From NCBI GenBank assembly GCA_024277195.1, contig JAJRVS010000230.1, positions 1-45,656 of the forward strand: 45,656 nt of DNA, read 5' to 3'. The notes under the pieces are model-generated. The model had not been told where the DNA came from, ran no database searches, and saw nothing but the letters and a program-made list of their open reading frames with translations. Positions 11,842 through 45,656 of the stretch are shown piece by piece (the first letter of the stretch is position 1; each line of letters opens with the position of its first letter). Both the position numbers and the translations under genes were made by a program. The stretch comes from Verrucomicrobiota bacterium (GTDB lineage Bacteria; Verrucomicrobiota; Verrucomicrobiia; Verrucomicrobiales; DEV007).

Positions 11842-11866
11842 TTCAAAGGGGTGGGGCGCTGATGAC

Positions 11867-13519: not shown

Positions 13520-13551
13520 CCGGGGCGTTGGGGTAGGCGTAGAGCCTCGGA

Positions 13552-13642: not shown

Positions 13643-13677
13643 TTCTGGGAGGGGAAGAGTAAGGATGTGGGAGTTTT

Positions 13678-14055: not shown

Positions 14056-14118
14056 TCGAAAAGGTTATTACTTGACTGAAATTTTATCAAAGTTGCTTGA
14101 AGGCAGCAAGTTCAATAA

Positions 14119-14153
14119 AAAAGCCACTCTCTTGCGAGAGTGGCTTTTTGTTT
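14119..14153 (-). terminator. Rho-independent terminator of the dhaK operon
   Basis: A near-perfect stem AAAGCCACTCTC / GAGAGTGGCTTT with a four-base-or-smaller loop, flanked by T-runs on both strands (TTTTTTATTG on the minus strand, TTTTTGTTT on the plus strand). It lies 14 bases after the stop codon of the isomerase gene. It should stop transcription of the four-gene operon and could also act in the opposite direction. Confidence 0.9.
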
Positions 14154-14166
14154 GAATGGTTTTGGA

Positions 14167-15192: not shown

Positions 15193-15219
15193 TCTTTTTA
15201 GGAGGTAGAATTTAGAATA

Positions 15220-16176
15220 TTACGCTTCGTTTTTGAGGTCGTTATACATTTGGAAGGCTTCGGCGGGTTTGAGGCCTTCGTGAACCACGCCGCGAACGGC
15301 TTTCATCATTGGTACGGGTGCATCGGCTTGGAAGATGTTGCGTCCCATGTCCACTCCGCTGGCTCCTTGTTCGCAGGCATCGTAGGCCATTTGCAAAGCG
15401 TCGAGCTCAGGGCGTTTTTTGCCACCGGCGATAACGATCGGAACCGGACAACAAGAGGTGACGGTTTCGAATTCTTCGTCGGTGTGGTAACATTTGACGA
15501 TGTGGCAGCCGAGTTCCGCCATGATGCGGGTCGCCATGCGGAAGTATTTCGGAGTGCGAGCCATGGAGCGTCCTACAGCGGTCACGCCCATGACGGCGAT
15601 GCCATAACGCGCAGCGGCGTCGATGGTTTTGGTCAGGTTCTGCAAAGAGCGGCGCTCATGGTGACTGCCGATGAAAACCTGCACGGCCAATACCGAGGCG
15701 TTGAGGCGGATCGCTTCTTCGATGTCCACGGCGGTGTCTTCGTAAGAAAGAGGTTCGTAGCCAGGGCGGCCGAGTTTGAGCGGTTTGCCGTCGAGTTCGC
15801 CTTCCCATTCGTCCATTGGGCTGATCATCGAGGTGCCACCGGAAGATCGCAATGCGATCGCTTTCTGGGTGCTGGCCGGGATGATGCTGCGTTGGATGCC
15901 GCGAGTCAGCATCAGGCAGTCACAATGAGGTTCGAGAGGCAGGATGGTCTGATCGACGCGTTCCAGCCCGGTGGTGGGTCCCATGAAATATCCATGGTCA
16001 AAAGCCAGCATGATGGTGCGTCCGGTTTTTGGATTGAAAACTTTGGACAGGCGGTTTTTCAGTCCCCAGTCGTATTGGTGAGAACCTTTGAGGAAAAAAC
16101 CAGGAGTTTCCTGGGGAGTGCTTGCGAAGTATTCCTTGTCCTGTTTGTCTGCGGTGGATGTGTCTAGATCGGCCAT
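15220..16176 (-). CDS. LsrF-like class I aldolase/thiolase
   Basis: A 318-residue DhnA-type class I aldolase closest by eye to LsrF, which in enterobacteria transfers an acetyl group from the phosphorylated, isomerised AI-2 signal to CoA. Matching blocks are DWGLKNRLSKVFNPKTGRT (36-54), MLAFDHGYFMGPTTGLERVD (56-75), TRGIQRSIIP (91-100), AVQVFIGSHHERRSLQN (164-180), IVIAGGKKRPE and GASGVDMGRNIFQ. The Schiff-base lysine should be Lys228 in HIVKCYHTDEEF. An insertion of about 20 residues (near 120-140, DEWEGELDGKPLKLGRPGY) is not in LsrF as I know it. The other lsr genes are absent and the partners here are dhaK and dhaL, so an AI-2 role is uncertain; a ketose phosphate is an alternative. Confidence 0.85.
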   Translation of the reverse strand: MADLDTSTADKQDKEYFASTPQETPGFFLKGSHQYDWGLKNRLSKVFNPKTGRTIMLAFDHGYFMGPTTGLERVDQTILPLEPHCDCLMLTRGIQRSIIPASTQKAIALRSSGGTSMISPMDEWEGELDGKPLKLGRPGYEPLSYEDTAVDIEEAIRLNASVLAVQVFIGSHHERRSLQNLTKTIDAAARYGIAVMGVTAVGRSMARTPKYFRMATRIMAELGCHIVKCYHTDEEFETVTSCCPVPIVIAGGKKRPELDALQMAYDACEQGASGVDMGRNIFQADAPVPMMKAVRGVVHEGLKPAEAFQMYNDLKNEA

Positions 16177-16224
16177 AATATTATTTTAGTTAAAGTGTGT
16201 TAATTGAGTGTAATTGTTTAAAAA

Positions 16225-16860
16225 TCAGTTGTTTATGAAATTCTTCATGGTGTTCAAAATGATTGCGATGGAAACCGCGCCGGCATCGGGGTGGCCGATG
16301 GATTTTTCACCGAGTGTTTTAGCTCGCCCCATGGTGGCGATCATAGCTTTGGAAGCATCGCGTCCCGCTTCGCCGGCAGCGGCTACGGCGGTGATGGCTT
16401 CATTCAGCGGTTGATCGGCAGCTTCCTGGGCGGCGGTGGCCGCTGGATCAAGCGCGTCGATCATGGTTTTGTCGCCGGGTTTGGCTCCGCCACGATCCAT
16501 TACGCTTTGAGTTCCGGACGTAATAAGTTCTGCAAGATCTTTAGCTGTAAGGGATTCGCTGTCCTTGATACTTTTTCCGCCAGCGCGAAAGAGTGTTCCG
16601 AAAACCGCACCAGAAGCACCTCCCATGGAGCTCATCATCGCCATGCCGACGTCCATGAAAACTTTGCCAACGGAAGTGTATTCGCTGGCTCCCAGCTTTT
16701 CCTTGATCGCGTTCATGCCGCGTTCCATGCCGACTCCGTGATCGCCGTCACCGAGCGCCCGATCGGCATCGGTGAGAATGGGTTCAGCTTCGATAATGGC
16801 ATCGGCCACCTGAAGCATCATGTTTTTGGTTTCTGTAGGAGTGAGTTGTGTTTTTGGCAT
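16225..16860 (-). CDS. dhaL: Dihydroxyacetone kinase subunit DhaL-like
   Basis: A 211-residue DhaL, the nucleotide-binding subunit of dihydroxyacetone kinases. LGDGDHGVGMERGM (about 36-49) holds the Asp-x-Asp-x-x-His magnesium site, MSSMGGASGAVFGTLF (about 76-91) the phosphate-binding loop, and GDKTMIDALDPA (about 128-139) the conserved DALDPA-type segment. In PTS-type kinases it carries ADP and needs DhaM; in ATP-type kinases the same domain uses ATP directly. No dhaM lies in the window. It is 81 bases after dhaK and 48 before the aldolase gene; the first gap contains copy 2 of the 36-base repeat. Confidence 0.9.
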   Translation of the reverse strand: MPKTQLTPTETKNMMLQVADAIIEAEPILTDADRALGDGDHGVGMERGMNAIKEKLGASEYTSVGKVFMDVGMAMMSSMGGASGAVFGTLFRAGGKSIKDSESLTAKDLAELITSGTQSVMDRGGAKPGDKTMIDALDPAATAAQEAADQPLNEAITAVAAAGEAGRDASKAMIATMGRAKTLGEKSIGHPDAGAVSIAIILNTMKNFINN

Positions 16861-16888
16861 GTTAGTAAAATGAGGAATTAGGAAATTG

Positions 16889-16924
16889 GAACCACGAATG
16901 GACAGGCATGAACACTAATAAGAG
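16889..16924 (+). repeat. 36-base intergenic repeat, copy 2
   Basis: This segment, beginning GAACCACGAATGGACAGGCA and ending ACACTAATAAGAG, matches the copy at 6120-6155 in 29 of 36 bases. It occupies the gap between dhaK and dhaL. The internal repeat of the type CGAATGGACA suggests degenerate tandem units. Function unknown; it does not form a stable hairpin by eye. Confidence 0.45.
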
Positions 16925-16941
16925 TTTTTATGGGTGAGGAA

Positions 16942-17982
16942 TTAAGCGCCTTGGTGGCCTTCGAGTTTGGTGTAACAGACGGATTGGCAGGATAGGTTCC
17001 AGTAGGTTTTCAGTTCGTCGTCGAGTTTGGTGAAGCTGAAGGAGATGCCGGTCATTTCCTGACAAGTGACCAGTGGGCCGACGATGACATCATAAACCTT
17101 GATGCCACGTTCACTGAGGATCTGTTTGGCTTTGCGCAGGGCGATGAGGCATTCCATCATGGTGGTGGCTCCGAGGCTGTTGACAAAAAGGATGATTTCA
17201 TCTCCTTCGCCCAAAGCATCGACGTCTTCGTCCGCTTCGAAATCTTTGAACAGATAGTCGAGCATTTGTGGCACCAGTTCGTCGGTGGTGGTCATGGGAA
17301 TTTCACCTACGCCGGGTTCGCCGTGGATGCCCATGCCGAGGCCGATTTTATCCGGATCGATGTCAAAAGTGGGTTTGCCGGTGGCAGGGATGGACCCTGG
17401 TGACATTGATACGCCGATCGAACGGGTCATCAGGCAGGCTTTTTTGGCAGCCGTTTCGAGTTCTTCCAAGCTGTTCGCAGTTTGTGACGCAGCGCCCACC
17501 AGTTTGACGATGGGAACCAGTCCGGCGACTCCGCGGCGGTTTTGTTTTTCCGTAGGCGGGGCGGAAGCGACGTCGTCGCAAATCAGCACGGTGCGCACGT
17601 CGATATCTTCATCCTCGGCCAGTTCGGCTCCGATGTCGAAGTTCATTACGTCACCGGCGTAGTTGCCGTAGAGGTATAGCACACCTTTGCCTTGATCGAC
17701 GGCTTCGGTGGCTTCGAAGACGATGCCTGGAGGCGGGGCGGCGAAGATGTCGCCGCAGGCAGCGCCATCCGCGAGGTTTTTTCCGACCAGTCCATGGTAA
17801 ATAGGTTCGTGACCACTGCCGCCGCCAACCAGCAGCGCGACTTTTCCCTCGGGAATGTTTTTTAGAGCCAGAGAGCGCTGACCAACGGAGATGCAGTCGC
17901 CGTTGTAGGCATCGATCAGACCTTCGACCAGTTCGTCGGCTACTTTGAGGGGGTCATTGATGAGTTTTTTGAGTTCGCTCAT
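16942..17982 (-). CDS. dhaK: Dihydroxyacetone kinase subunit DhaK-like
   Basis: A 346-residue DhaK, the substrate-binding subunit. GGGSGHEPIYHGLVGKNLAD (53-72) is the canonical phosphate/substrate loop, DIFAAPPPG (78-86) follows, and His220 in GLGMGIHGEPG is the residue that forms a covalent hemiaminal with the ketone substrate (His218 in E. coli). NYAGDVMNF (107-115) and DDVASAP complete the family pattern. With DhaL it would phosphorylate dihydroxyacetone or a short ketose such as erythrulose. It is the first gene of the operon; the promoter should lie in the 207-base gap shared with the divergent addB-like gene, where no obvious operator is seen. Confidence 0.92.
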   Translation of the reverse strand: MSELKKLINDPLKVADELVEGLIDAYNGDCISVGQRSLALKNIPEGKVALLVGGGSGHEPIYHGLVGKNLADGAACGDIFAAPPPGIVFEATEAVDQGKGVLYLYGNYAGDVMNFDIGAELAEDEDIDVRTVLICDDVASAPPTEKQNRRGVAGLVPIVKLVGAASQTANSLEELETAAKKACLMTRSIGVSMSPGSIPATGKPTFDIDPDKIGLGMGIHGEPGVGEIPMTTTDELVPQMLDYLFKDFEADEDVDALGEGDEIILFVNSLGATTMMECLIALRKAKQILSERGIKVYDVIVGPLVTCQEMTGISFSFTKLDDELKTYWNLSCQSVCYTKLEGHQGA

Positions 17983-18189
17983 GAGGTGAAAAATAGAGTG
18001 GGAAAAGGGTGCGTGTAGTGGGTGAAAATTGTAACGCTATAAAAGGGCGTGGGAGCGGGGATTTGTCAATGAATAAAGGAGCAGATTTAGGCTGTAGCTG
18101 TTTACATGGCATGACAAAAAATGCGTGGGCTTGGGCGTCCGCTAAAGCTTGCATCATTTTGGATTCACTGATATTGAGAGTCAAAATTT

Positions 18190-21100
18190 ATGATTCCCGT
18201 AAGCTCGAGCATTGACCCTAAACAAATTTTTCTCGATTGGCGACGTCCGGTGGTGGATTTGGCGGCGGAGTATTTGCTGTCACAGGTGAAAACAGATGCA
18301 GTGAGCTGGATCGATTTATCTAATTTACTGGTGGTGGTGCCGACACGCAATGCGGGGCGACGTTTGCGCGAAGCTTTGGCTCTGGCGGTAGAAAAATCGG
18401 GCGGAGGGGCGGGCTTGTTGCCACCTCAGTTGCGGGTGCCTGAGGATTTTCTTAGTGGAGAGAATGCGAGCAACCGAGTGGCGAGTTCCACTGCTGCGCA
18501 ATTGGCATGGATCGAACAACTGAAAACCATCGACCTCGATGATTATGAAGTGCTGTTTCCAGTGAAACCACCGGAGCAAAGTTTTTCCTGGGCGAGCAAG
18601 GTGGCCAGCGAGCTTGCGCATGCGCGTTCGGCTCTGGCCGAGGGAGGTTTGTTGGCAAGGGATCTGCCGAATGGGGAAAAAGGCGACGAGCTGCCCGAAC
18701 GCGAACGCTGGTTGGAGATTGCCAGACTGGAAGGCTTGGTGATCGAAGCTTTGGATCAGGCGGATTTGCAGGAGCCGGAAGCGGCGAAAATTATCACTGC
18801 GCGCTCATGGCAGGTTCCGGATGATGCGGAGAAAATTATTTTGATGGCGCTGCCGGACCCGTTGCAACTGGCGATCGATGCGGTGGTGGCCGGGGTGGGC
18901 AAAAGCGCGGTAGAGCTGGAGGTTTGCATTCATGCTCCGGCATCGATGGCAGAGGCGTTTGATCAGTGGGGGAGGCCGCAGGCGGAATTTTGGCAGCGGC
19001 GTATTTTGACCGGACTCAAAGATGATCATATTTTCCTGGCAGCCGACGCAGAAGGGCAAACACAAGCAGTATTGAATTTCCTTCGTTCACGGAGAGATCA
19101 AACGCGGATGGGGCAGCATGCGGTGGCGGTTGGCAGCGCGGACAGTGATGTGGTGCCGGTGCTCAAACAGGCTTTGTTAGATGCGGGGGTGCAGGTGTTT
19201 GATCCCGACGGTGAGCCTTTTCGCAAACATTCGCTGTATCACTTTCTGGATAACTTTTGTAAATTGTTACGTGATGGGCGCTATCAGGACTTTCTCGAAT
19301 TGTTAAGAAATCCTACTTGGCTGGATTCTCTGGCCAAACGTTTTGAAGCGATGCCGTCGCTGGAGGTAAGAGAAGGTCAAGATAAGAGTTATTTTGATCC
19401 GGCTGGAGTTTTACAAGCCTTTGATTCACTTTACGAAAGGGTTTTGCCGGGCAGTCTCGATGAAGCCATGCAGGCTCTTCGGCGTGACCGTGAGCGCGAT
19501 GAATCCTATCACCGACCTTTGGCTGGGCAGTGGGTAGTGGGAGATGCGGTCGCAGGGCTGCTTGAAAATTTCAAAAAACAGTCCTTTGCCCAGGCTTTCG
19601 GGGCTTTGCTTGAGGAATGGCTGGGAGGTCGACAAGTGCGGGCGGATGAAGCGGAAGCGTTGTTGTTGCCGGCAGTCGCTGAACGCAGCTGTCATCTGGC
19701 TGAGGAAATGAGTCAGGTTCTGGGGGGCAAAACGAATTTTGATCCTGCGGATTTGTTTGATTTGATTTTACAAAGTCTGGCCAGCTTGCGTTATTATCCG
19801 GGTGATCGTCATGCGAGTGATTTGGAGCTGCAGGGGTGGTTGGAATTGCCTTGGGAGAGTGCAGATGATTTGGTGATCAGCGGGTTTAATGATGGGCTGG
19901 TTCCGGCTGCAGTGGTGGGGGATATGTTCCTGCCAGAGTCGGCGCGCAATCTGTTGGCACTGAAAAGCAACGAGCAGCGTTTTGCCCGCGATCTGTATTT
20001 GTTGGAATCGATGTTGGGCTGGCGTTTGCAGGGGGATCATTCGGTGCAAGTGGTGGTAGGCAAGGTGACTTCGACCGGGGATTTGCTCAAGCCTTCGCGT
20101 CTGTTGTTTCAGTGTGTGGATGAGGACTTGCCTCAGCGCGCCTTGCGCCTGTTTGCCGGAGATGCTGATGCCAGTGGTGCTGAGAAACCAGTTTCAGCTT
20201 GGAATCTGAGCTGGAAACTGCAGCCGCCTTTTGACCGTGAGTATTTGTTGCAACACTTGCCAAAAACTATATCCGCAACCAGTTTTAGTGGTTTTTTAGC
20301 TTGTCCTTTTCGTTTTATTCTCAAGCGTATGCTGCGGATGGAAGAGGTGAACTGTAAAAAAATGGAAATGGATGCGCGGGATTTTGGCAATTTGTGTCAC
20401 CGGGCACTGGAGGTTTTGTCTGCCGGGTCAAGTTTGGCTGAAGAAGCAAGTTATGACCTGGTGTATCAGGCTTTGGTGGATTCCTTGCATCAGCAGGTGA
20501 AGACGTTTTATGGAGAGCAGCCTAGTGCGACTATTTTGTTGCAGGCTGAGGTGGCGAGCAATCGCTTGCAGTTAGCTGCGCGGCATCACGTTGCTGCATT
20601 AAAAGATGGTTGGGAAGTGGTGGCTACGGAGAAGGTGTTTGGTAAGGAAGATGGAGGATGGTTGCTGGCAGGCATGCCGGTGACCGGCACGATTGACCGG
20701 ATTGAAAAAAACGAAGCCGGTTGTTATCGTTTGATTGATTACAAAACATCAAGCAAAGCCAGCTCCGCCTTTGAGGCTCATTTACAGCCTTTGCCTCGTG
20801 GAAAAACGGAGCAGGACTATCCCGAATGGTTGACCTACGAACTGCCTGAGAATGGTAAAATTTATCGCTGGGTTAATTTGCAACTGCCGGTGTATGCTTT
20901 GTGGGCGGAACAGCATCTGGCCGCCGAAGCGGGCAAGGGTTTGGTGGATTGTGCGTATGTGAATCTGCCCAAGGCCTTGAGCGAGGGGGGCTACGATGGC
21001 TGGCCGGGAGGGATGGATTCTGTTTTGCTGCGTTCGGCCCGGGCTTGTGCGGTGGGGGTGATCGAGCAGGTGCAAAAAGGGCATTTCTGGCCGCCGGCGG

Positions 21101-21231
21101 ACAAGGTGAAGTACGATGACTTCAAGAGTTTGGGTTTCCCTAACTTTATCGACAGCCTGGACCTGGATGCTTTTGCTAAAGTTTTTGCGGATGCGGATTT
21201 TTTAAATGAGGGGAAAGGAGAGCATCAATGA
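18190..21231 (+). CDS. addB: AddB-like helicase-nuclease subunit
   Basis: A 1013-residue protein matching the AddB/RexB-like subunit of a double-strand break repair complex. After an N-terminal segment LLVVVPTRNAGRRLREALAL (about 46-65), the bulk is a degenerate superfamily 1 helicase core with no Walker A motif. The C-terminal quarter is a RecB-type PD-(D/E)xK nuclease: ISATSFSGFLACPFRFILKR at about 696, FGNLCHRALE at about 733, then GTIDRIE near 831-837 and RLIDYKTS near 846-853, the catalytic Asp and the D-x-K pair. The cluster cysteines of Firmicutes AddB (C-x2-C near the C-terminus) are not evident. Its stop overlaps the addA start (ATGA), so the two are translationally coupled. Confidence 0.85.
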   Translation: MIPVSSSIDPKQIFLDWRRPVVDLAAEYLLSQVKTDAVSWIDLSNLLVVVPTRNAGRRLREALALAVEKSGGGAGLLPPQLRVPEDFLSGENASNRVASSTAAQLAWIEQLKTIDLDDYEVLFPVKPPEQSFSWASKVASELAHARSALAEGGLLARDLPNGEKGDELPERERWLEIARLEGLVIEALDQADLQEPEAAKIITARSWQVPDDAEKIILMALPDPLQLAIDAVVAGVGKSAVELEVCIHAPASMAEAFDQWGRPQAEFWQRRILTGLKDDHIFLAADAEGQTQAVLNFLRSRRDQTRMGQHAVAVGSADSDVVPVLKQALLDAGVQVFDPDGEPFRKHSLYHFLDNFCKLLRDGRYQDFLELLRNPTWLDSLAKRFEAMPSLEVREGQDKSYFDPAGVLQAFDSLYERVLPGSLDEAMQALRRDRERDESYHRPLAGQWVVGDAVAGLLENFKKQSFAQAFGALLEEWLGGRQVRADEAEALLLPAVAERSCHLAEEMSQVLGGKTNFDPADLFDLILQSLASLRYYPGDRHASDLELQGWLELPWESADDLVISGFNDGLVPAAVVGDMFLPESARNLLALKSNEQRFARDLYLLESMLGWRLQGDHSVQVVVGKVTSTGDLLKPSRLLFQCVDEDLPQRALRLFAGDADASGAEKPVSAWNLSWKLQPPFDREYLLQHLPKTISATSFSGFLACPFRFILKRMLRMEEVNCKKMEMDARDFGNLCHRALEVLSAGSSLAEEASYDLVYQALVDSLHQQVKTFYGEQPSATILLQAEVASNRLQLAARHHVAALKDGWEVVATEKVFGKEDGGWLLAGMPVTGTIDRIEKNEAGCYRLIDYKTSSKASSAFEAHLQPLPRGKTEQDYPEWLTYELPENGKIYRWVNLQLPVYALWAEQHLAAEAGKGLVDCAYVNLPKALSEGGYDGWPGGMDSVLLRSARACAVGVIEQVQKGHFWPPADKVKYDDFKSLGFPNFIDSLDLDAFAKVFADADFLNEGKGEHQ

Positions 21232-24200
21232 GCGCTGAAATGACAAAAATATCGAGTGAGATCATTGAGGCGTCTGCGGGTTCGGGTAAAACTTACGCGC
21301 TCACCAATCGATTCATCAAGCTGATGGCGTTTGGGGTGCCTGCTGATCGAATCGTGGCGCTGACTTTTACGGTTAAAGCCGCGGGAGAGTTTTTTGATGC
21401 GATCTTGGAGAAATTGGCCAAAGCTGCCGGTGACGAGGCGGCAGCGGCTCAATTGGCAAAAGAGCTGGAGCGAGCAGATTTTACCAGTAGTGATTTCCTG
21501 CGTCTGTTGAAAGACCTGACCCGTGGTTTGCACCGTTTGTCACTAGGCACCCTGGACAGTTTTTTTGTCCGGGTGGTGGGGGCTTTCCCATTGGAATTTG
21601 GTTTGGGCGGAGAGTTTTCGATGATGGTGAAAAAAGCAAAGATCGAAGCCGTGCGGGCACGGGTGGCCGAGCAGGTTTTTCGTCAAGTGGTGAAGGATCA
21701 ACAGGGGCTGGATGAGTTTTTGGCGGCTTTCAAGCAAGCGACCTTTGGTATTGAAGAGAATAGTTTTTTTAGCAATCTTGATAAATTTGTCGAGGATTAC
21801 CAGAAGCTTTACCTGGATGTGCCGAGCGAGCAGAAGTGGGGGGATGCGGCAGCCATTTGGCAGGCAGGGGAATGGGCATTACAAGGCGACGGACGGGCTG
21901 AATTAAATATTACCGTGGCTAAATTGGCTTTGTTAGCGCCTCAATTAGGTCCGGAGGACAAACAACAAAATAGATGGCAGGCGTTTTTTGAGGGCACAAA
22001 AAAGATTGTGCCCGGCATGGCTTTACCTAAAACCGTGAGTTATTTGACCAATAATTTTTTGGATCAGTGGGACGAACTCAAGGCCGGTGAAACACGGATC
22101 ACTATCGAGCGCAAGAAAATAGAATTTGATGCGATTGCTTGCCAGGCGACGGTAGATTTTGTCGAAGCGGTGATGGCGATGAATATCGTCGCCAAGCTGA
22201 AACGTACCCACGGAGTGTGGAAAGTTATTGACGCTTATGAAAAGTGTTATAATGAGAACGTGAGACGGCGCGGACAATTGCAATTCGAGGATTTGGCGCG
22301 GGTGATGGGGGGGGAGAACGGACTGTATCAAGGGGCTGAAAACGGAGTGAGCTTTGAGTTGGCCTACCGGCTGGATGCGCAGTTTGATCATTGGCTGCTG
22401 GATGAATTTCAGGATACCAGTCGGGTGCAGTGGCGGGCGATTAAGGAGCTGGTGGATGAGGTGGTGCAGGACAGCGAAGGGCGGCGTTCTTATTTTCAGG
22501 TGGGTGATACCAAGCAGTCGATTTATGGTTGGCGTGGTGGGGATCCCAAATTATTTGGTGAGGTGTTGGAGCAGTACCGCAATGGGGTGAAAGTCAGTTC
22601 GCTGGCGGTTTCCTATCGTTCCGGGCCAGCGGTGATTGATACCGTTAATCAGGTCTTCGGATCGCGGGATGTATTGAAAGAATGGCTGCCGGACGAGTCG
22701 GTGGAAGCTTTTCATTGGCAGGATCATGCTTGCTCGGACAAAACGTCTGAACTGCCGGCTTTTGCCGCACTGTGGCATCCAGATGTGGCCAAAGCCAAGG
22801 AGGAAGATGTGCTGGATTTGATGGTGGAGACGGTGAAGGAAATCGACCCTATTGGAAGAGGGCTTTCCTGTGCGATTTTGTGTCGGGGAGGCACCATGCT
22901 GAACAAGGTGATGGATCGTTTGAGGGAGGAGGGTGTCGACGATGTGGATGGAGGCGCCAAGACCTCGATTGCTGACGACAATCCTGTGACCTTGTCCTTG
23001 TTGTCTTTGATCAAGCTTGCGGGACACCCGGGGGATCGTTTTGCTGCAGGGCATTTGCAGATGACGCCGATCGGTGAGTGGATGCGGGGCGAAGGGGTGT
23101 CGATGAAGCGTTTGGCGCTGGATAGTTTGAGATTAATCCATGCGGCGGGTTATGAAGCTTTAGTTGAGTTGTGGGCGCAACGTTTTGCCGCGGCGGAAAA
23201 TTTGACGGATGATTTTGCTCTTCAGCGAATGGGAGAATTTCAAGACTTGGCGAGACTTTTTGATCAAGACGGGGAGCGCTCAGTAGATCTGTTTCTTGAT
23301 TTTGTGAAAGGCAAAAAAGTGAAGGCAGTTGTTTCGAGTAAAGCCATCCAAGTGATGACGATTCATGGATCCAAGGGGCTCGGTTTTGATGTGGTGATTC
23401 TGCCGGAGTTGATCGGAGGTAGTAAAAATCTCATCAGTGTGGAGAGCGGTTTGAGTCAGGGGGGGGATGAGGACAAACCCTGGGTTTTGGATTTGCCGAG
23501 TAAGGTTTTCCAACAATTGGATCCAGTTTTGAGGCGACATTTGGAGGATTTGCAGGAGGCATCGGGTTTTGAGTCTTTGTGTGTGTTATATGTGGCGATG
23601 ACACGGGCCAAACAAGGTTTGTATATGTTGGCTCCGTCTTACGGTTCGTCGACGGCATTGAATTTTCTGGCGCTGCTGGAGGCAACTTTGAGGGAGGAGG
23701 GGCAAGGTGACGAACGTCGATCTACCCGTGTGGGTTCGTGCGAGGCGCTGATCTCTTACACCTGCGGTGAGCGTCAGTGGTATGAAGGGCATGCGCTGAT
23801 TTCCCGGGATTCAACGGTCACACAGGATTTGGGAGAAGCTCCACCAACTGATTTGTCAATAGAGCTTGCTCTGGGATCCAAACGAGAGCGGCATCGCACC
23901 CCTTCGGAACATAAACAAAGCTCTTATGGCGCGGAAACCCTGTTTTCAGTAGGCGGGGCTGTAGCTCGTGATTTTGGCAATGAAGTGCATGCGGTGTTTG
24001 AGCAGATCGATTGGATTGGCCCGGATCAGAATGTGGAGACGGTGTTGCAGCAGATCGATGCCGGGGAAGAAGTGCTGACACATGTGAGTCAGGCTTTGCA
24101 ACAGCAGAGCATTGCGGCTTTGTTTGATAAAGGGGATGCCCAGGTAGAGCTTTGGCGCGAGAAGGCTTTTGAGTTGCTGTTGGAGGGAGAATGGATTTCG

Positions 24201-24834: not shown

Positions 24835-25096
24835 GGGAAGCGCGAAGTCATTTTTTATTACCGTTTGGTAATGAAATATGATTGATCTTGTCTCATCTAG
24901 TCAAGCTTACTCCGGGGGTGAAGTGCCGCTTGATCTTGCAAAGATTCTTGAGCGTGGAAATTCCTGCAATGATTGAAGAACTTCACTCCATCGCCGACCA
25001 TCAGCTGATGGGGGTGGTTCGCTGGGATCGGAAAAAAGATCCGCTGGCTTTTGACAAAGGTCAATGAAATCGGTCATGACGAGCAGGGAAAGGGTG
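24835..25096. other. Non-coding gap before the inverted hairpin element
   Basis: Between the MmcQ-like gene and the repeat lies about 260 bases. A weak hairpin ATTACC-GTTT-GGTAAT (24857-24872) follows the stop without a T-run and may be a degraded terminator. A 33-codon ATG frame from 24878 (MIDLVSSSQAYSGG and on) and a longer overlapping frame have no recognisable similarity and no ribosome-binding site; I read this as decayed sequence. Confidence 0.4.
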
Positions 25097-25306
25097 CAGG
25101 ACAAAATAGTTAAGCTGCTGACCATTATGAGTTTCGCCCTTGCAGGGCTGGGAGAATTGGATTTTTTACCCAGCGCTTCGCACTGGGCTATAGCATTGAG
25201 CACCGTTGGTGCAAAAGAGATGAAAGCATACTGTCCTGTAAGGACAAAATGTGATAGCTCGGTGCGAAGCGCTGGGGCTAAATCGATTTTATTACCAGCC
25301 CTGAGC
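25097..25306. repeat. Six-hairpin symmetric repeat element, copy B (inverted, one end lost)
   Basis: This is the reverse complement of the element at 6415-6700. From the left it has the end AGGACAAAATAGTTAAG (25099), then GCCCT-TGC-AGGGC (25136-25148), CCCAG..CTGGG with the GC-TTC-GC core (25169-25187), GCACC-GTT-GGTGC (25200-25212), TGTCCT-GTA-AGGACA (about 25232-25246), a hairpin with the GC-GAA-GC core (about 25258-25276), and half of the last hairpin (CCAGCCCTGA, to about 25306) where similarity to copy A stops. Differences between copies fall mostly in loops or between stems. The similarity break suggests deletion of the far end. Confidence 0.8.
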
Positions 25307-38119: not shown

Positions 38120-39469
38120 ATGAATCACCTTGCTTACGTTTTTGAGCGTTTTCCTTCTTTTACTCAGACTTTCTGTGTGCGGGAAGTTTTGGAGTTGGAG
38201 CGACAGGGCATGAAGCCGTTGATTTTTTCGATTCGTGATACGCGACTTGAGGAGGAAGAGCAGAAACATTTCCCTGCTGACCTTTACGAGCGGGTGCATT
38301 TTTTGCCTCAAGGCGATGAGCTGGTCGAGGCGGTAAAAAAGTTGAAGGCTGAGGGGAAATTGCCACAGTCGGTGGTGCTGACCTTGCGTCATTGGAGCGA
38401 CAACGGAGATCGGGCGGATAAGAGGCGGGTGCATGAGGCGGCTTATATTGGGGTGATGTTACAGGAGGCGGGGGTGCAGCATGCGCATTCCCATTTTGCT
38501 GGGATTGGAGCGAGGACTTGTTGGTGGTTGAAGTTTTTCTACGACATCACTTATAGCTTTACCGGTCACGCCAATGATCTTTTTTGCAAAACAGATTTTG
38601 AAATCACGCTGGCGAAGCTAATGCGTGATGCTGCCTTGGTGGTGACAGTGAGTGATTACACCGTGCGGGATTTGCAGGGGCGTTTTCCTGAATCGTCGAG
38701 CAAGGTCAAGCGGGTGTATAATGGGTTGAATCTCGAACCTTTTCGGGAAGCGGGTCAGCGGCGGGATGATGATGCGGTGTGGAGTGGTGAGCGGCTTATC
38801 TTCACCGTTGGGCGTTTGATTGAGAAAAAAGGTTTTGATGATTTGATCAAAGCCTGCGCGTTGATGAAAAAGGATGGGGTTAAGGATTTTTCATGTGTGA
38901 TTGTGGGAGATGGTCCACTGGAGGCTGAGTTGCGGGAATTGATCCGGACTTGTGAGGTCGAGGATTGCGTGGAGCTGGCGGGTCCGAAATCACAAGCTGA
39001 GATCATCGCTTACCTTGAACGGGCAGCTATTTTTGCCCTGCCTTGTGTGACCGAAAAAGATGGCGGCAAAGATAACCTGCCGACAGTGATCATGGAAGCG
39101 ATGGGCGCGCGGGTGCCGTGTGTTTCTACCATTCTGGCAGGGGTGCCCGAGATGGTGATCGATGGGCAGACCGGAAGGCTGGTGGAGGAACGTCAGGTGG
39201 AGGATTTTGCCAAGGCGATGCAGGATGTGTTAGCAGATAAAGCTCGGGCGATTAAAATGGGGATGGCAGGTGAACAGCGAGCGATTGAGATTTTTGCCAA
39301 AGAAGTGACGGCGAAACAGATGCGCCGTCTGCAGGTGTCGCGCGGTTTGGTGCGTTTTGATGCGACTTTGATCGCGAATGATTCGGGCTTGTGGATTTGT
39401 TATGCCCGTCAGTGGGTGAAGCGATTTTTCCGTCTGTTTCGTTGGCAGAAGAAGGATCGGATTGGTTGA
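38120..39469 (+). CDS. Glycosyltransferase family 4
   Basis: A 449-residue GT-B-fold glycosyltransferase. The N-terminal domain begins LAYVFERFPSFTQTFCVREVLELERQG, a start common among colanic-acid/exopolysaccharide GT4 enzymes; HAHSHFAGIGARTCWW and TYSFTGHANDLF follow (acceptor side). The C-terminal domain contains FTVGRLIEKKGFDDLIKACA (about 233-252), VIVGDGPLEAEL, and EKDGGKDNLPTVIMEAMGARVP (about 312-333), which is the E-x-E-type donor motif. It should transfer a sugar from a nucleotide donor in the cytoplasm, probably for a surface polysaccharide; the neighbours (exoproteins) fit a surface role but do not prove it. A C-terminal basic stretch (RQWVKRFFRLFRWQKK) may touch the membrane. Confidence 0.88.
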   Translation: MNHLAYVFERFPSFTQTFCVREVLELERQGMKPLIFSIRDTRLEEEEQKHFPADLYERVHFLPQGDELVEAVKKLKAEGKLPQSVVLTLRHWSDNGDRADKRRVHEAAYIGVMLQEAGVQHAHSHFAGIGARTCWWLKFFYDITYSFTGHANDLFCKTDFEITLAKLMRDAALVVTVSDYTVRDLQGRFPESSSKVKRVYNGLNLEPFREAGQRRDDDAVWSGERLIFTVGRLIEKKGFDDLIKACALMKKDGVKDFSCVIVGDGPLEAELRELIRTCEVEDCVELAGPKSQAEIIAYLERAAIFALPCVTEKDGGKDNLPTVIMEAMGARVPCVSTILAGVPEMVIDGQTGRLVEERQVEDFAKAMQDVLADKARAIKMGMAGEQRAIEIFAKEVTAKQMRRLQVSRGLVRFDATLIANDSGLWICYARQWVKRFFRLFRWQKKDRIG

Positions 39470-39561
39470 ATTGATATAATAATTTTTCAGGAATCTTCTG
39501 AATATTTCCGTATGAGAATATGATTGATTGCTATTGTCGGTTAGGCGTTGAGTTTAACTGT

Positions 39562-39642
39562 TATTAAACTAGGTTTATCTATTCCTGTCTTTCCTGCCTC
39601 TGCGCGAAAGGCATTTTTATTCATATCTAAGTCATTCTTCCA
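39562..39642 (+). promoter_or_regulatory. Leader shared by the exoprotein pair, copy 1
   Basis: From TATTAAACTAGGTTT (39562-39576) to the ATG is 81 bases; the same block starts 82 bases before the second exoprotein gene. It includes a hairpin TCTTTC (39588-39593) / GAAAGG (39606-39611), with one G-U pair, followed by ATTTTTATT. Conservation with a compensating change in the second copy points to an attenuator or regulatory hairpin. Confidence 0.45.
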
Positions 39643-42600
39643 ATGAACGCTGCTCCCTCATTCATGCCTTTACGCTGGCGTTTGCTGGCGAGTGTTCTTA
39701 TTGTTGCTATGGCAGTTCAGCCGGGGGTTTATGGTAATCCGACGGCGCCGGTGATTCGCTCGGGGGCGGCGGAGTTTAACTTTGATAATCCGGCTCACTT
39801 GCTGATTCAACAGGGCAGCGACAAGCTGATCGTGGATTGGGGGGAGTTCAGTATCAGTGCGGGGGAGCTGACGCAGTTCATTCAGCCGGGAAGTGGCAGT
39901 GCGGCTTTGAACCGGGTGATGGGGGCGTTGCCGAGTTCGATTCAGGGTCAGTTGCAGGCTAATGGGCGGGTGTTGTTGATCAATCCCAACGGGGTGTTGA
40001 TTGGTCCCGGTGGGCGGGTGGATACGGCGGGGTTCATCGCTTCAACTTTGGATGTCAGTGATGCGGATTTTTTGGCGGGAGGTGATTTGCGGTTTCAGGG
40101 GAACTCGCTGGCTAAGGTGGTTAACTTGGGAACGATCAATGCCATTGGCGGCGGTGATATTTTCCTCATCGCGCGTGAAGTGGTGAATGCGGGAACTTTG
40201 AATGCGCCTGAGGGGACGGTTGGTTTGGCTGCCGGGCAGCAGATTGTGATTGCGGCGCAGGGGGAAGAGCGGGTGGCGATTTTACCCGAGGGACAGGAGG
40301 GTTCGGTTACTAATAGTGGGACGATCGCGGCGGCGACGGCGGAACTCAAGGCGTCTGGTGGTAATGAATATGCGTTAGCAGTGAACAATACCGGACTGGT
40401 GCGGGCCAAGGGTTTCGAGAACCGCGGCGGCAGGATTTATCTCTCCGTCGGAGGCGGCAAAGGGCGCATCGTCAATACCGGGACTTTGAAAACGCGGATG
40501 GCAGACAACAGTGGTGGTCTGGTGCAGATCACTCATGCGGGGGAAGAGGCTGGGGCCGGGGTGGATATTGGCGGAAGCATTGACGTGAAGGGTGATGTTG
40601 GTAGTGGCGGCATGGTATTGGTCACTGCGCCCGGCATCCATGTGCTGGAGGGTGCGAGTATTGATGCGTCGGGTAAAGTGAATGGCGGCCAGATCGCGCT
40701 GTACAGTGCGGGGAACGAGGGCACCATGATCGATGGTTCGTTGGTGGCTGACGGCAGCAGCGGGGACGGAGGATTTATCCATGTGACCGGATCTTTTATC
40801 GGCTTGGGAGCGAATGGCTTGATCAGCGCCAAGGGTGGCAATGGCGGTGGTTTTGTTTTACTGGGAGCTGATCCCGAGGATGGTTCGGGTCAGGTGCAGA
40901 GCTCGCAGATCGTGCTCGCGCCCGGTTCGCGGATTTCGGCAAATGGGGTGAGTGGTGACGGTGGTATGGTATTGATCAACGGCGCGCGGGATGGTGATGT
41001 GATGCTGGGAGGGGAAATCAGCGCGAGTAGTCAATCGGGAGTGGGTGGACAGGTGATGGCTTTTGGCGGTGATGTCACTTTGGGCGGCACGGCGTTGATT
41101 GATGCCGGTGGTTATCGTGGCGGTGGGCAGGTCTATATTGGTGGTGGAGATCGGGGACGCGACGCGATTAAGCCCAATACGCAGAATACCAGTGTGGCAG
41201 AGGGTGCGCTGATTTTGGCTAATGCGACGGGCGCGGGAGCCGGCGGCAGAGTGGTTTTGTGGGCGGATCGATTGATGGATTTCCAGGGATCGATTGAGAA
41301 TAGAGGAGCAGGTGGAGGAGCGGGTGGATTTGCCGAAGTGTCGGGTATGGAGTATTTGGGCTTCAATGGCACGGTGGATACTGGGGGGGGGAATCTGTTG
41401 CTCGACCCGTATAGTTACATCATCGGAGCGGCGGAGGCGGGGAATATCGTGACGGCCTTGGGACTGAATAACGTGATCATTGATACGACGATGGACGTGG
41501 CGAGCTACGGGTCGTCCGGGGTGAATACGGATCCTGGCGACATCACGGTGAACTCAGCCATTCTCTACGATTCGACTTTTGATCTGACTTTTATGGCGAT
41601 GGGCGATGCCAACTTCAACTCCAGCGTGCAGAACCGCAATGCGACGGGTGGGGATATCAATATCGTGGCGGGGTGGGACGGGACGACGCCTTACAACACG
41701 GCAGCTTTTGTGGTGGAGGATGTGACGGCGACGACGCTGTTTGGAGGTAGTATGGGGAGTGTAGTAATTGGCGATGGAACGCAGAGTGCAGGAGTGGCGG
41801 TGGGCAGTCGATCAGGAAATACCAATGTGTTTGGCTATGATGTCAGTCTGCAAGGGGGCACGGGGGCCGGAGCGGACGGGCGTTTTGCGCAGTTGGGTTT
41901 CCAGGTGAGTGATCAGGGAGTGGCTTACATAGTAGAGGGTGGTATCACCGTGCATGCGCTTAATGATGTGAGCGCAACGGGTGGCGACACCAGTCAATTC
42001 AACTACGCACAGATTGGCCATGTGGGGGCGGATCAAAACCTGAGCGGAACAATCGAAGCGAGTGCTAGCTCCGTGATAGAATTGTCCGTTGGGAACGACG
42101 TGGTTTTTGCGGGGGGGGCTGGCAGTCTTTCTTACGCGCAACTGGGTCAGGGAGGAGTGTCTGCTAGTGGTGACCACAGTGGAACCACAACCTTGACCCA
42201 AGCTAATAACGTGAGCTTTTCTGGAGGTGCAGGACTTAGATCTTACGCGCAGTTGGGTCAAGGGGGGCTCGGTGCTCGTGGTAACCAGAGTGGTATCACG
42301 ACTCTGGTTCAGGTCAATGATGTGAGCTTTTCGGGTGGTTTGGGATTACGATCCTACGCACAACTGGGGCAAGGAGGGCGTGTTGCCATTGGCAACCACA
42401 GCGGAACCATAACTCTGGTGCAGGTCAATGATGTGACTTTTTCGGGAGGGAGAGGCGCCGGCACTTACGCGCAGCTGGGTCAGGGGGGCATTTTTGCCAA
42501 TGGTAATCAAAGTGGCACGACGGTGATCACGCAGGCCAATGACGTGACCTTTTTGGCAGGGAGAGGGCCTGACTCTTACGCCCAGTTGGGTCAGGGAGGA

Positions 42601-43695
42601 AGCGGTGCCATTGGTAATCACAGTGGAAACACAACGATCACCCAGGCCAATGACGTGGTGTTCACCGGGCAAAATGCCTACGTGCAATTGGGTCAGGGCG
42701 GGGTGAATGCCAATGGTAATCACAGTGGGACTACAACACTGACACAAGTCAATGACGTGATATTTACGGCGGGGAGAGGGCTGAATGCATACGCGCAGTT
42801 GGGTCAAGGGGGGGCGGGTGCTTTTGGCGACCATAGTGGGACTACGACGATCAGCCAGGCGAATGATATTAGCTTCCAGGTTGCGAATGGGCCTCTCAGG
42901 GGTTACGCGCAGTTGGGACAGGGTGGGATTTTTGCCGAGGGCAACCATAGCGGAAACATCAACGTGACCCATAGCGGAAACTTATTGCTTTCAAGCCTCA
43001 ACACTACAAATCAATATGCCCTGATCGGCAACGGGGATGAACTGGGTGACGTGGACGCAGTTAATGCGGTGAGCGGTGACGTGAGGGTGCGCACGGGTGG
43101 GAGTGCGACGCTAGTTAACAACGCTTTCATTGGTAATCTTATCGATCCGGATGGAAGTTATACCAGTGGTAATACCTTCATCGGGGTAGGGAGCATCGGT
43201 GGTTCCGAACTGCTCACAGCAGATGCCAACAGTGGTTTTTTCAGTGCGCCTACGGGACAACTTCGTTTTTACATCCCTGGTGTTTTGAATAACCAGATTG
43301 CCGCCGGGGCTTCTTTAAACGGAACCCTCGCCTCAGGGCCGGGGATTACCCCCAACGCACAAGGACTGTATACCTTTGGATTGGGGCCCTATAGTTTAGT
43401 GGATCCTGGCAATTTTGCTTTTTATACACTAGGTATCGCTCCTGTAACACCAATCGCTAGGATCACAGGAGGCAACAACTTGCCAGACGCGGTAGTTTTA
43501 CCTGCTATTGGGAAGGACTTGTCTGCGGCTTCCTTTCCGCAGGACATTCGTTTGATCCGACCGGTGGTGTTTGAAAGAGATTCGTGGTGGCAATGGCCAG
43601 AGTATCGTATTGGTGGGTTTGTAGATTTTCTGCCCAATGCTTCGATGTATACCCTGGGAAGCTTTGAGCTGGAGGAGGAGGAGGAGGGGGAATAA
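39643..43695 (+). CDS. Filamentous-haemagglutinin-like two-partner-secretion exoprotein
   Basis: A 1350-residue exported protein (signal peptide to about residue 31, AVQPGVYG-NPT). The N-terminal TPS domain (about 33-150) shows WGEFSISAGELTQFIQPGS, ALNRVMGALPSSIQGQL and INPNGVLIGPGG, the pattern that is recognised by a TpsB outer-membrane transporter. A beta-helix follows with many GGNGGGFV-type turns. Residues about 830-1115 hold eight near-identical 37-residue repeats starting YAQLGQGG. The C-terminus is non-repetitive and ends in an acidic tail (ELEEEEEGE). No TpsB gene is in the window. It is likely an adhesin or surface fibre. A close paralog starts 221 bases after its stop. Confidence 0.88.
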   Translation: MNAAPSFMPLRWRLLASVLIVAMAVQPGVYGNPTAPVIRSGAAEFNFDNPAHLLIQQGSDKLIVDWGEFSISAGELTQFIQPGSGSAALNRVMGALPSSIQGQLQANGRVLLINPNGVLIGPGGRVDTAGFIASTLDVSDADFLAGGDLRFQGNSLAKVVNLGTINAIGGGDIFLIAREVVNAGTLNAPEGTVGLAAGQQIVIAAQGEERVAILPEGQEGSVTNSGTIAAATAELKASGGNEYALAVNNTGLVRAKGFENRGGRIYLSVGGGKGRIVNTGTLKTRMADNSGGLVQITHAGEEAGAGVDIGGSIDVKGDVGSGGMVLVTAPGIHVLEGASIDASGKVNGGQIALYSAGNEGTMIDGSLVADGSSGDGGFIHVTGSFIGLGANGLISAKGGNGGGFVLLGADPEDGSGQVQSSQIVLAPGSRISANGVSGDGGMVLINGARDGDVMLGGEISASSQSGVGGQVMAFGGDVTLGGTALIDAGGYRGGGQVYIGGGDRGRDAIKPNTQNTSVAEGALILANATGAGAGGRVVLWADRLMDFQGSIENRGAGGGAGGFAEVSGMEYLGFNGTVDTGGGNLLLDPYSYIIGAAEAGNIVTALGLNNVIIDTTMDVASYGSSGVNTDPGDITVNSAILYDSTFDLTFMAMGDANFNSSVQNRNATGGDINIVAGWDGTTPYNTAAFVVEDVTATTLFGGSMGSVVIGDGTQSAGVAVGSRSGNTNVFGYDVSLQGGTGAGADGRFAQLGFQVSDQGVAYIVEGGITVHALNDVSATGGDTSQFNYAQIGHVGADQNLSGTIEASASSVIELSVGNDVVFAGGAGSLSYAQLGQGGVSASGDHSGTTTLTQANNVSFSGGAGLRSYAQLGQGGLGARGNQSGITTLVQVNDVSFSGGLGLRSYAQLGQGGRVAIGNHSGTITLVQVNDVTFSGGRGAGTYAQLGQGGIFANGNQSGTTVITQANDVTFLAGRGPDSYAQLGQGGSGAIGNHSGNTTITQANDVVFTGQNAYVQLGQGGVNANGNHSGTTTLTQVNDVIFTAGRGLNAYAQLGQGGAGAFGDHSGTTTISQANDISFQVANGPLRGYAQLGQGGIFAEGNHSGNINVTHSGNLLLSSLNTTNQYALIGNGDELGDVDAVNAVSGDVRVRTGGSATLVNNAFIGNLIDPDGSYTSGNTFIGVGSIGGSELLTADANSGFFSAPTGQLRFYIPGVLNNQIAAGASLNGTLASGPGITPNAQGLYTFGLGPYSLVDPGNFAFYTLGIAPVTPIARITGGNNLPDAVVLPAIGKDLSAASFPQDIRLIRPVVFERDSWWQWPEYRIGGFVDFLPNASMYTLGSFELEEEEEGE
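42130..42990 (+). repeat. Eight tandem 111-base repeats inside the exoprotein
   Basis: Units start at 42130, 42241, 42352, 42463, 42574, 42676, 42787 and 42901. Seven are 111 (one 102, one 114) bases; the last is partial. Each encodes YAQLGQGG-x5-GN/DHSG-TTT-hTQ-x-NDVxF-x6 (about 37 residues). The repeats vary at fixed positions, so this is a protein domain array, not a recent slippage product. Confidence 0.85.
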
Positions 43696-43833
43696 TTGTT
43701 AATGGTTAGTTATCGGTTCTTAATTAATCATTATGAACTCCTGCCGGATACTGGATTTCGGGTTGAATGCATCAATTTTCTATAAGCTAATATAGAGGAA
43801 TGCCGTTTAACATTAAGCATTGAAATCTGCTGC

Positions 43834-43915
43834 TATTAAACTAAGTTTGCCAAGTCCTACCTTTCTTGCCTCGGCGCGAAAGGTCTTTTTATTTTATATC
43901 AAAACTGTTCTCCCT
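43834..43915 (+). promoter_or_regulatory. Leader shared by the exoprotein pair, copy 2
   Basis: TATTAAACTAAGTTT (43834-43848) lies 82 bases before the ATG, as in copy 1. The hairpin here is ACCTTTC (43859-43865) / GAAAGGT (43878-43884), a perfect 7-base stem with a 12-base loop, followed by CTTTTTATTTTATATC. Stem bases differ from copy 1 but pairing is retained. A hairpin with a U tract about 25 bases before the start could end or delay transcription. Confidence 0.45.
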
Positions 43916-45656
43916 ATGCGCTTATCTCCATCGATCTCATTACATTGGCGTTTGTTGGCAAGCATACTCATTGTGGCCATGGCAGTTCAGCCGATGGCTT
44001 TTGCCAATCCGGCGGCTCCGGTGATTCGCTCGGGGGCGGCGGAGTTTAACCTTGATAATCCGGGTCAGCTGCTGATTCAGCAGGGTAGCGACAAGTTGAT
44101 CGTAGATTGGGGGGAATTCAGTATCAGCGCGGGGGAGCTGACTCAGTTTATTCAGCCGGGTAGCGGCAGTGCGGCTTTGAACCGGGTGACGGGGGCCTTG
44201 CCAAGTTCGATCATGGGGCAGTTGCGGGCCAATGGGCGCTTGTTGTTGATCAATCCCAACGGGGTGTTGATCGGTGCAGGCGGACGGATTGATACGGCGG
44301 GTTTTATTGCTTCGACGCTGGATGTCAGTGATGCGGATTTTTTGGCTGGCGGTGATTTGCGATTTCAGGGGGACTCGCTGGCGAAGGTGGTTAACTTGGG
44401 AACGATCAATGCGATCGATGGCGGTGATATATTTCTCATCGCTCGTGAGGTGGTCAATGCGGGCACTTTGAATGCGCACGAGGGAACCGTTGGACTGGCG
44501 GCGGGTCAGCAGATTGTGATTTCTGCGCAGGGTGAAGAGCGGGTGGCAATTTTGCCCGAGGGGCAGGAGGGCTCGGTGACTAATAGCGGCACGATCGCGG
44601 CGATGACGGCAGAGCTGAAGGCGGCTGGTGGCAATGAGTATGCGCTGGCAGTGAACAATACCGGATTGGTGCGGGCGAAGGGTTTTGAGAATCGTGGTGG
44701 GCGGATTTATCTTTCTGCTGGGGGTGGTAAAGGGCGCATTGTTAATACGGGGACTTTGAAAGCTCGGATGGCAGACAACAGCGGGGGCTTGGTGCAGATC
44801 ACCCATGCGGGGGAAGAGGCAGGGGCCGGGGTGGATATTGGTGGGCGGGTGGACGTGAAGGGCGATGTGGGCAGTGGTGGTATGGTGCTGGTCACTGGGC
44901 CGGGGATTCATGTATTGCCTGGAGCGCGCATTGATGCTTCGGGCAAGGTGGACGGCGGACAAATTGCGCTGCACAGCGCGGGGGACGAAGGCACGATGAT
45001 TGACGGGGCGCTGGTAGCTGACGGCAGCAGTTGGGACGGAGGGTTCATTCATGTGACCGGATCTTTTATCGGCTTGGGAGCGAATGGAGTGATCAGTGCC
45101 AACGGTGGTAATGGCGGAGGGTTTGTATTATTGGGAGCGGATCCCGAGGACGGTTCGGGTCAGATGCAGAGTTCGCAGATCGTGCTTGCGCCAGGTTCGC
45201 GGATTTCGGCGAATGGGGTGAGTGGTGATGGCGGCATGGTGTTGATCAACGCAGCGCGGGATGGCGAGGTGATGTTGGGCGGGCAGATCAGCGCGAGCAG
45301 TGATGCGGGAGTGGGCGGACAGGTGATGGCTTTTGGCGGGAATGTGAGTTTGAGCGGCACGGCGTTGATTGATGCCGGTGGTTATCGTGGTGGCGGGCAG
45401 GTGTATATTGGTGGCGGGGATCGGGGACGCGATGCGACTAAGCCCAATGCGCAGAATACCAGTGTGGCGGAGGGCGCGCTGATTTTGGCTAATGCGACGG
45501 GCGCGGGAGCTGGCGGCAGAGTGGTTTTGTGGGCGGATAGGCTAATGGATTTCCAGGGGGCGATTGAGAATAGAGGAGCGGGCGGAGGCGCGGGAGGTTT
45601 TACTGAAGTGTCTGGTCTGGAGTATTTGGGCTTTTACGGCACGGTGGATACCGGGG
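43916..45656 (+). CDS. Second filamentous-haemagglutinin-like exoprotein, 5' part
   Basis: An open frame of 580 complete codons from the ATG at 43916 to the window edge, without a stop. It begins MRLSPSISLHWRLLASILIV, a signal peptide cleaved near MAFA-NPA, and continues with the same TPS domain as the preceding gene (WGEFSISAGELTQFIQPGS, LLLINPNGVLIGAGG) and the following beta-helix. Over the shared part the proteins are above 90 percent identical by eye, with most differences scattered substitutions and no indel seen. The gene is therefore a recent tandem duplicate, or is kept similar by gene conversion. The repeat region and C-terminus lie beyond the window. Confidence 0.88.
   Translation, partial: MRLSPSISLHWRLLASILIVAMAVQPMAFANPAAPVIRSGAAEFNLDNPGQLLIQQGSDKLIVDWGEFSISAGELTQFIQPGSGSAALNRVTGALPSSIMGQLRANGRLLLINPNGVLIGAGGRIDTAGFIASTLDVSDADFLAGGDLRFQGDSLAKVVNLGTINAIDGGDIFLIAREVVNAGTLNAHEGTVGLAAGQQIVISAQGEERVAILPEGQEGSVTNSGTIAAMTAELKAAGGNEYALAVNNTGLVRAKGFENRGGRIYLSAGGGKGRIVNTGTLKARMADNSGGLVQITHAGEEAGAGVDIGGRVDVKGDVGSGGMVLVTGPGIHVLPGARIDASGKVDGGQIALHSAGDEGTMIDGALVADGSSWDGGFIHVTGSFIGLGANGVISANGGNGGGFVLLGADPEDGSGQMQSSQIVLAPGSRISANGVSGDGGMVLINAARDGEVMLGGQISASSDAGVGGQVMAFGGNVSLSGTALIDAGGYRGGGQVYIGGGDRGRDATKPNAQNTSVAEGALILANATGAGAGGRVVLWADRLMDFQGAIENRGAGGGAGGFTEVSGLEYLGFYGTVDTG

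Follow-up and report, generated by a model that had tools for sequence, protein, structure and literature searches.

Two-partner secretion (TPS) systems, known mostly from proteobacterial pathogens, pair an exoprotein, TpsA, with a transporter, TpsB. The stretch analyzed here (the window) is the whole of contig C162, 45,656 nucleotides (nt) from a Verrucomicrobiota bacterium genome of 5.49 Mb (GCA_024277195.1; 422 contigs, 95.55% complete). It ends in two tandem tpsA genes and most likely represents the left part of a cassette that consists of tpsA1, tpsA2, probably a third tpsA, and one tpsB, placed between a glycosyltransferase gene and a DUF7133 gene; the assembly appears to have broken inside the repeated tpsA genes. 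The type of system is familiar, and the tandem layout is frequent in this family.

The first-pass annotation of this DNA described two large tandem open reading frames (ORFs) that start 4273 bases apart, and both are present: copy 1 is complete, and copy 2 is open at the contig end (Table 1). The likeness indeed extends into the leader, covering ~85 bases before each ATG (blastn alignment of 39558-41386 with 43830-45656). As the window is the entire contig, copy 2 has been cut by the assembly and not by mutation; shortening by mutation was considered and found to be without evidence, given that the contig ends there and the last 139 bases recur inside the tpsA gene of another contig, C130. Each copy starts with a putative signal peptide, recognized by eye in the translations (RWRLLASVLIVAMAVQPG in copy 1 and HWRLLASILIVAMAVQPM in copy 2). 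The TPS domain that follows is recognized by Pfam (PF05860; 105.5 bits, E = 5.7e-30, in copy 1 and 109.3 bits, E = 4.1e-31, in copy 2, with a cut-off of 33.5) and NCBIfam (TIGR01901; 70.1 and 69.6 bits, respectively, with a cut-off of 29.1). A sequence search of the PDB matched copy 1 to five proteins, all of the TPS type, with EtpA (8cpk; E = 1.4e-45, residues 31-268) at the top. In the structure model of its N-terminal part, short repeated strands fill residues 150-590, a pattern from which a beta-helix is predicted; most blocks have predicted local distance difference test (pLDDT) scores of 70-97, with dips near residues 200-217, 411-418, and 506-510. Foldseek gave three matches with E < 0.001 (E = 8.6e-05), one to the secretion domain of HMW1 (2odl) and two to that of EtpA (two chains of 8cpk).

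The identity of over 90% that had been reported for the two copies holds for the proteins (90-91%) but not for the DNA (85.4%), and the signal-peptide region, included in that claim, is the least alike among 40-codon windows (74.6% nt identity in the first 38 codons). Over 580 codons, the copies differ by 0.64 synonymous (dS) and 0.052 nonsynonymous (dN) substitutions per site, the dN/dS ratio of the tpsA N-terminal block being ~0.08. Identical runs in the coding alignment do not exceed 38 bases, and no internal stop occurs in the visible parts of copy 1, copy 2, or the C130 tpsA. Scaled against a dS of 1.16-1.28 for flanking genes (see below), this combination of dS and dN indicates that copies 1 and 2 stem from a duplication of some age, maintained under purifying selection, and are not fresh repeats.

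The earlier statement that no TpsB gene is nearby is true of the window only, owing to the contig end, and is overturned by two tpsA-tpsB loci. In the same genome, C130 carries, in this order, a 945-codon 3' part of a tpsA (the contig ends inside the gene), a tpsB with ShlB and POTRA_2 domains, a DUF7133-HEAT-cytochrome c gene, a sulfatase gene, and a kinase-WD40 gene. The cognate tpsB thus lies beside a tpsA and is linked to the window by the synteny of the flanks. In CSMAG_116 (taken to be G001, which genome search assigns to the same genus), the glycosyltransferase gene (89% amino acid [aa] identity) and the DUF7133 gene (91%) are adjacent on contig G001:C23, with ~130 bases between them; DNA homology to C162 ends at the glycosyltransferase stop codon and restarts in C130 ~75 bases into the DUF7133 gene. 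Because the two genes adjoin there, C162 and C130 very probably are the two sides of one tps locus, with the site empty in CSMAG_116. The latter genome ("Verrucomicrobiota bacterium"), the single relative of the locus found in a scan of genome contigs, has its own tps genes at another chromosomal place (G001:C113), namely one tpsA of 3859 aa (11001-22580) and an unbroken tpsB of 602 aa, near a candidate IS3-like transposase, so labeled from its translation. The CSMAG prefix is that of a catalogue of cold seep genomes for which MEGAHIT was the assembler, according to the part of its description that was available (PMC10491686).

The C130 tpsB differs from its CSMAG_116 ortholog by a dN of 0.079 and a dS of 1.24, and the four orthologous flanking genes have the same dS (1.16-1.28). 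As tpsB and the flanking genes are equally distant from the congener, the cassette looks inherited, not newly acquired; recent horizontal arrival was rejected, since neither tpsB nor the tpsA N-terminal block is farther from the congener than the flanking genes. These sequence distances point to a long presence of the cassette in the genus, during which it either moved or was lost and kept at different places. In another congener, G002 (73% complete), the glycosyltransferase gene on G002:C437 is followed by DNA other than tps or DUF7133 until the contig end, and the site behind this gene looks variable in the genus.

The C-terminal halves contain ~37-aa repeat units, 8 in copy 1, 7 in the C130 tpsA, and 31, in several modules, in the CSMAG_116 tpsA, followed by a tail common to all three. 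The model of the C-terminal half shows strands across the repeats at moderate confidence, with the tail lacking a confident prediction; Pfam recognized no domain besides TPS in copy 1 and none at all in the part of tpsA on C130. A contact-dependent CdiA/CdiB system, with its variable toxic C terminus and immunity gene, was rejected: the C-terminal block is common to copy 1, C130, and CSMAG_116, and the next gene is another tpsA (after copy 1) or tpsB (in C130) rather than an immunity gene, the sequence of copy 2 stopping before its C terminus.

Copy 2 and the C130 tpsA overlap by 626 bases with 37 mismatches, all in the first 487 bases and 27 of them at third codon positions; over the 208 codons in common, dS is 0.21. 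Because of these differences, the C130 tpsA is probably a separate third copy, bringing the copy number of the cassette to three. Less probably, there are only two copies, the C130 tpsA being copy 2 from another strain, and the cassette reads tpsA1-tpsA2-tpsB. Such an arrangement fits the identity of the last 139 bases to C130 and flanks that are compatible with one gap; besides C162, C130 alone matches the copy 1 C terminus (residues 933-1349), and no contig carries a separate 3' end for copy 2. However, the mismatches upstream of the identical stretch and a dS judged high for strains within one species speak for the third gene.

A decaying locus, with tpsB broken and extra tpsA copies drifting, is unlikely. 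The C130 tpsB is made up of two TpsB-matching pieces of 485 and 142 codons in the same frame, split by an in-frame TAA after codon 482 of the ORF, upstream of a VRGF stretch. The sequence SVRGFEQN behind this stop presumably is the L6-loop motif of the TpsB/Omp85 barrel. The low dN and high dS of this gene relative to CSMAG_116 speak for either a recent loss or a consensus error, possibly of a single base. The low dN/dS of the tpsA N-terminal block, the lack of internal stops in the visible tpsA sequences, and the presence of two further TpsB genes in the genome also argue against decay.

The copies appear to have a mosaic history. In the comparison of copy 1, copy 2, and CSMAG_116, sites that join the two copies account for 83 of 233 before nt 1099 and 81 of 140 after it (P = 0.0025), and the break near nt 1100 persists without the signal-peptide stretch (P = 0.0075). 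Set against sites that join copy 1 with CSMAG_116, the copy-joining sites give P = 0.0005 (nt 1110), and against those that join copy 2 with CSMAG_116, P = 0.011 (nt 110); the remaining comparison gives P = 0.33. With the C130 tpsA in place of copy 2, the ratio of copy-joining sites to sites joining copy 1 with CSMAG_116 changes from 73:23 before codon 573 to 77:156 after it, and the ratio to sites joining C130 with CSMAG_116 changes from 89:38 before codon 636 to 61:82 after it (copy 1 numbering), each matched in 0 of 5000 shuffles; the third comparison was matched in 192 of 5000. Along the same pair, dS rises from 0.47 (0.34-0.65) in 213 codons before codon 586 to 0.80 (0.55-1.19) in 149 codons after it and, over the 179 codons at the C terminus, to 2.03 (1.25 to saturation), while the distances of both genes to CSMAG_116 stay at dS 0.77-1.08 throughout. 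These breaks in the site patterns, together with the rise in dS, support the view that part of the N-terminal block was kept alike by past recombination while the C-terminal halves diverged; gene conversion and unequal crossing-over would leave equal traces here. The end of the homogenized tract roughly coincides with that of the predicted beta-helix, and past it the copies are as far apart as genes of different species. Recombination between the copies, proposed in the first-pass annotation, therefore stands as a past event, with breaks at codons 573 and 636 and near nt 1100, but the near-identity that was to favor ongoing exchange does not (dS 0.64, 38-base run). Saturated silent sites, named there as a sign of mere random decay of the similarity, are absent from the N-terminal part and nearly reached where copy 1 and C130 are compared over their C-terminal halves (dS 2.03).

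Phase variation, also suggested there, finds no support. A poly-G mechanism was considered for a run of nine G at position 41383, the matching place in copy 2 being at the contig end, and was rejected after codon shuffles made the run in copy 1 ordinary: this gene has two runs of at least 8 G against 0.95 expected, and the maximum of 9 is reached in 23.8% of shuffles. The C130 tpsA has no runs of at least 6 G. The CSMAG_116 tpsA has 47 such runs against 27.6 expected from codon shuffles, one of them of 11, but its internal repeats are not independent and the excess was not used. A hypervariable locus for antigenic or phase variation, with neighboring copies exchanging sequence at present, is, on this one assembly, quite improbable: the mosaic breakpoints and the commonness of tandem arrays in the family would suit it, but silent sites differ strongly, the longest identical run is short, the G-runs of copy 1 stay within expectation, and in Neisseria the exchange between tpsC cassettes and tpsA is described, in the available part of PMC3848433, as too rare for antigenic variation.

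Among 58 genomes sampled from the family, 31 encode TPS domains (E of 1e-10 or better), and 15 of these 31, the window genome included, have at least one head-to-tail pair of tpsA genes on the same strand, with 19 junctions, one of which (G017:C45) depends on a short match at the edge of its contig. In a tree of 34 TPS domains, from which the leading tpsA of G035:C454 is absent (phmmer missed it, although its open frame of 4584 codons is present), the array positions of G026 and G032 and those of G027 and G033 pair across genomes, as in older arrays, each pair within one genus, whereas four domains of G020:C124 and two of G020:C56 cluster within their own genome; the window copies and CSMAG_116 form a clade of open internal order. 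Since the tree contains both cross-genome pairs and within-genome clusters, it indicates that arrays arose more than once and that some have lasted. A downstream tpsB was found in two (G011 and G013) of the six other arrays read and not in G026, G032, G027, or G020:C56, with the caveat that this phmmer search (CSMAG_116 TpsB as the query, 1e-6, 4.9-14.6 kb read) could miss a distant TpsB; the order tpsA-tpsA-tpsB is therefore not the rule in the family. In G035:C454, tpsB precedes the array, G029:C214 gave no match in the phmmer step, and the G020:C124 and G033:C512 contigs end within the array. At the protein level, similarity is higher in the N-terminal part than in the middle for G011, G013, G026, G027, and the G020:C124 pairs that include copy 3; copies 1 and 2 of G020:C124 are evenly similar along their length, and similarity within the G020:C56 pair peaks at the C terminus (88-92% aa).

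Several observations weigh against a working cassette with a homogenized secretion block. At the DNA level, the N-homogenized pattern is seen in the window's array only: none of the six other arrays measured has a clear one, dS being above 1.1 in every alignment window listed and often saturated. The shuffles involve three sequences and several comparisons and take sites as exchangeable, and faster change in the C-terminal half of C130 would add C130-only differences. The 626-base overlap could come from a variant of copy 2 in another strain and not from a third gene, which may limit the recombination test for copy 1 and C130. The tpsB of the cassette may be inactive owing to its in-frame TAA. 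In a scan of 39400-44100, promoter-like sites were absent where 3.6 were expected, and the number of terminator-like sites was at chance level (6 against 4.7 expected). As to structure, the models were built on three sequences each, pLDDT is below 50 in residues 1-146 of the N-terminal model and in the C-terminal tail, and the Foldseek fits are loose (template modeling [TM] scores of 0.21-0.40, root mean square deviation of 11.7-12.7).

Each TpsA thus has a putative signal peptide, followed by a TPS secretion domain and a predicted beta-helix that together span residues ~50-590; in copy 1 and the C130 tpsA, a C-terminal half rich in 37-aa units and ending in a conserved tail is added. If the cassette is functional, export would proceed by Sec, the POTRA domains of TpsB would recognize the TPS domain, and TpsA would then cross the TpsB barrel and either fold as a beta-helix on the surface or be released. 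One TpsB would serve all tpsA copies, and the products are likely to be adhesins whose C-terminal halves may confer differing adhesive or structural properties. Tentatively, head-to-tail tpsA arrays may provide a standing route to diversify surface proteins in this family: in the window lineage, gene conversion or unequal crossing-over would keep the secretion domain and beta-helix alike to fit one transporter, leaving the repeat-rich C-terminal halves free, and the sister species would lengthen its single gene instead. What the window offers is tandem full-length exoprotein genes in Verrucomicrobiota and, in its own array, a measurable boundary between the homogenized secretion block and the free C-terminal half, which would make it testable whether a common TpsB constrains the evolution of several substrates. 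Arrays can also break assemblies, with contigs ending inside the array here and in several relatives, so that counts of TpsA copies from fragmented genomes may be too low.

Of the known systems, EtpA/EtpB of enterotoxigenic Escherichia coli includes the protein that ranks first when the TPS domain is compared by sequence with the PDB (8cpk) but has a single tpsA and other repeats. The tpsA-tpsB pair of CSMAG_116 shares the orthologous tpsB and the same TPS and C-terminal blocks; it differs in the chromosomal place and in having one long tpsA where the window's locus has separate genes. HMW1A/HMW2A and HMW1B/HMW2B of Haemophilus influenzae are similar in that one genome has two paralogous TpsA adhesins, and the HMW1 secretion domain (2odl) is the top Foldseek match. 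However, each HMW tpsA belongs to a separate operon that also encodes a translocator and a glycosyltransferase, according to the available part of PMC10127715, whereas here the copies stand head to tail before one tpsB. In Neisseria meningitidis, serial tpsA-related sequences (tpsC cassettes) recombine with tpsA, and these extra copies are, as far as the available part of the report goes, shorter cassettes that exchange the 3' end (PMC3848433); here, in contrast, copy 1 is an entire gene, copy 2 possesses a start and a TPS domain of its own, and homogenization concerns part of the 5' half. Expansion of Omp85/TpsB proteins in Verrucomicrobia, among other phyla, is noted in the accessible part of PMC4104836, and TPS systems have been reviewed (PMC5422565, likewise available in part). 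No report of tandem tpsA arrays in Verrucomicrobiota was found among the papers listed, judged by title and start of abstract, a search that leaves subscription literature largely uncovered. PMC2453333 was considered as a precedent for tandem TPS genes and set aside, as the tandem duplication in its available part concerns other genes.

Table 1. Features of the tps locus in the window
Feature	Positions	Strand	Basis or remark
Glycosyltransferase (Glycos_transf_1)	38120..39469	+	Left flank of the tps cassette
tpsA copy 1 leader, common to copy 2	39558..39642	+	
tpsA copy 1, complete, 1350 aa	39643..43695	+	ORF
Copy 1 TPS secretion domain, residues 52-276, NPNG at residue 114	39796..40470	+	
Copy 1 predicted beta-helix, residues ~150-590	40090..41412	+	Structure model
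Copy 1 inferred homogenized tract, ~codons 367-573, ends approximate	40741..41359	+	Site patterns
Copy 1 repeats, eight ~37-aa units, each ending in YAQLGQGG	42130..42971	+	
Copy 1 C-terminal block, in common with the C130 and CSMAG_116 tpsA	43168..43695	+	73% nt identity to C130
tpsA copy 2 leader	43830..43915	+	
tpsA copy 2 from ATG at 43916, 580 codons	43916..45656	+	Open at the contig end
Copy 2 TPS secretion domain	44066..44740	+	
Copy 2 last 139 bases, recurring unchanged within the C130 tpsA	45518..45656	+	Assembly break

The source genome has five TPS-domain matches, on C162 (two), C335, C89, and C189, and three TpsB matches, on C89, C163, and C130. A second TPS locus is found at G000:C89 7998-11777, where tpsB precedes a tpsA cut by the contig end and encodes an 827-aa TpsB with a long N-terminal extension. 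At G000:C189 2-7624, another tpsA start has in its vicinity a SecA-like gene of reduced length (SecA_DEAD, PP_bind, and a partial P-loop domain), together with genes for a TolC-like OEP and a DUF11 protein, a group that could be an accessory export set.

Scans of the window for tRNAs and Rfam families gave no matches. Elsewhere in the window there is a dispersed element of ~287 bases, at 6415-6703 and 25089-25302 (minus strand), found also at L017 9329-9616. Among 70 first candidates in the genome, 40 longer matches were scored, with 84-93% identity (self excluded). The element contains an internal inverted repeat (63-129 with 180-245), has no Rfam match in the window, and looks like a miniature inverted-repeat transposable element (MITE)- or repetitive extragenic palindromic (REP)-like element.

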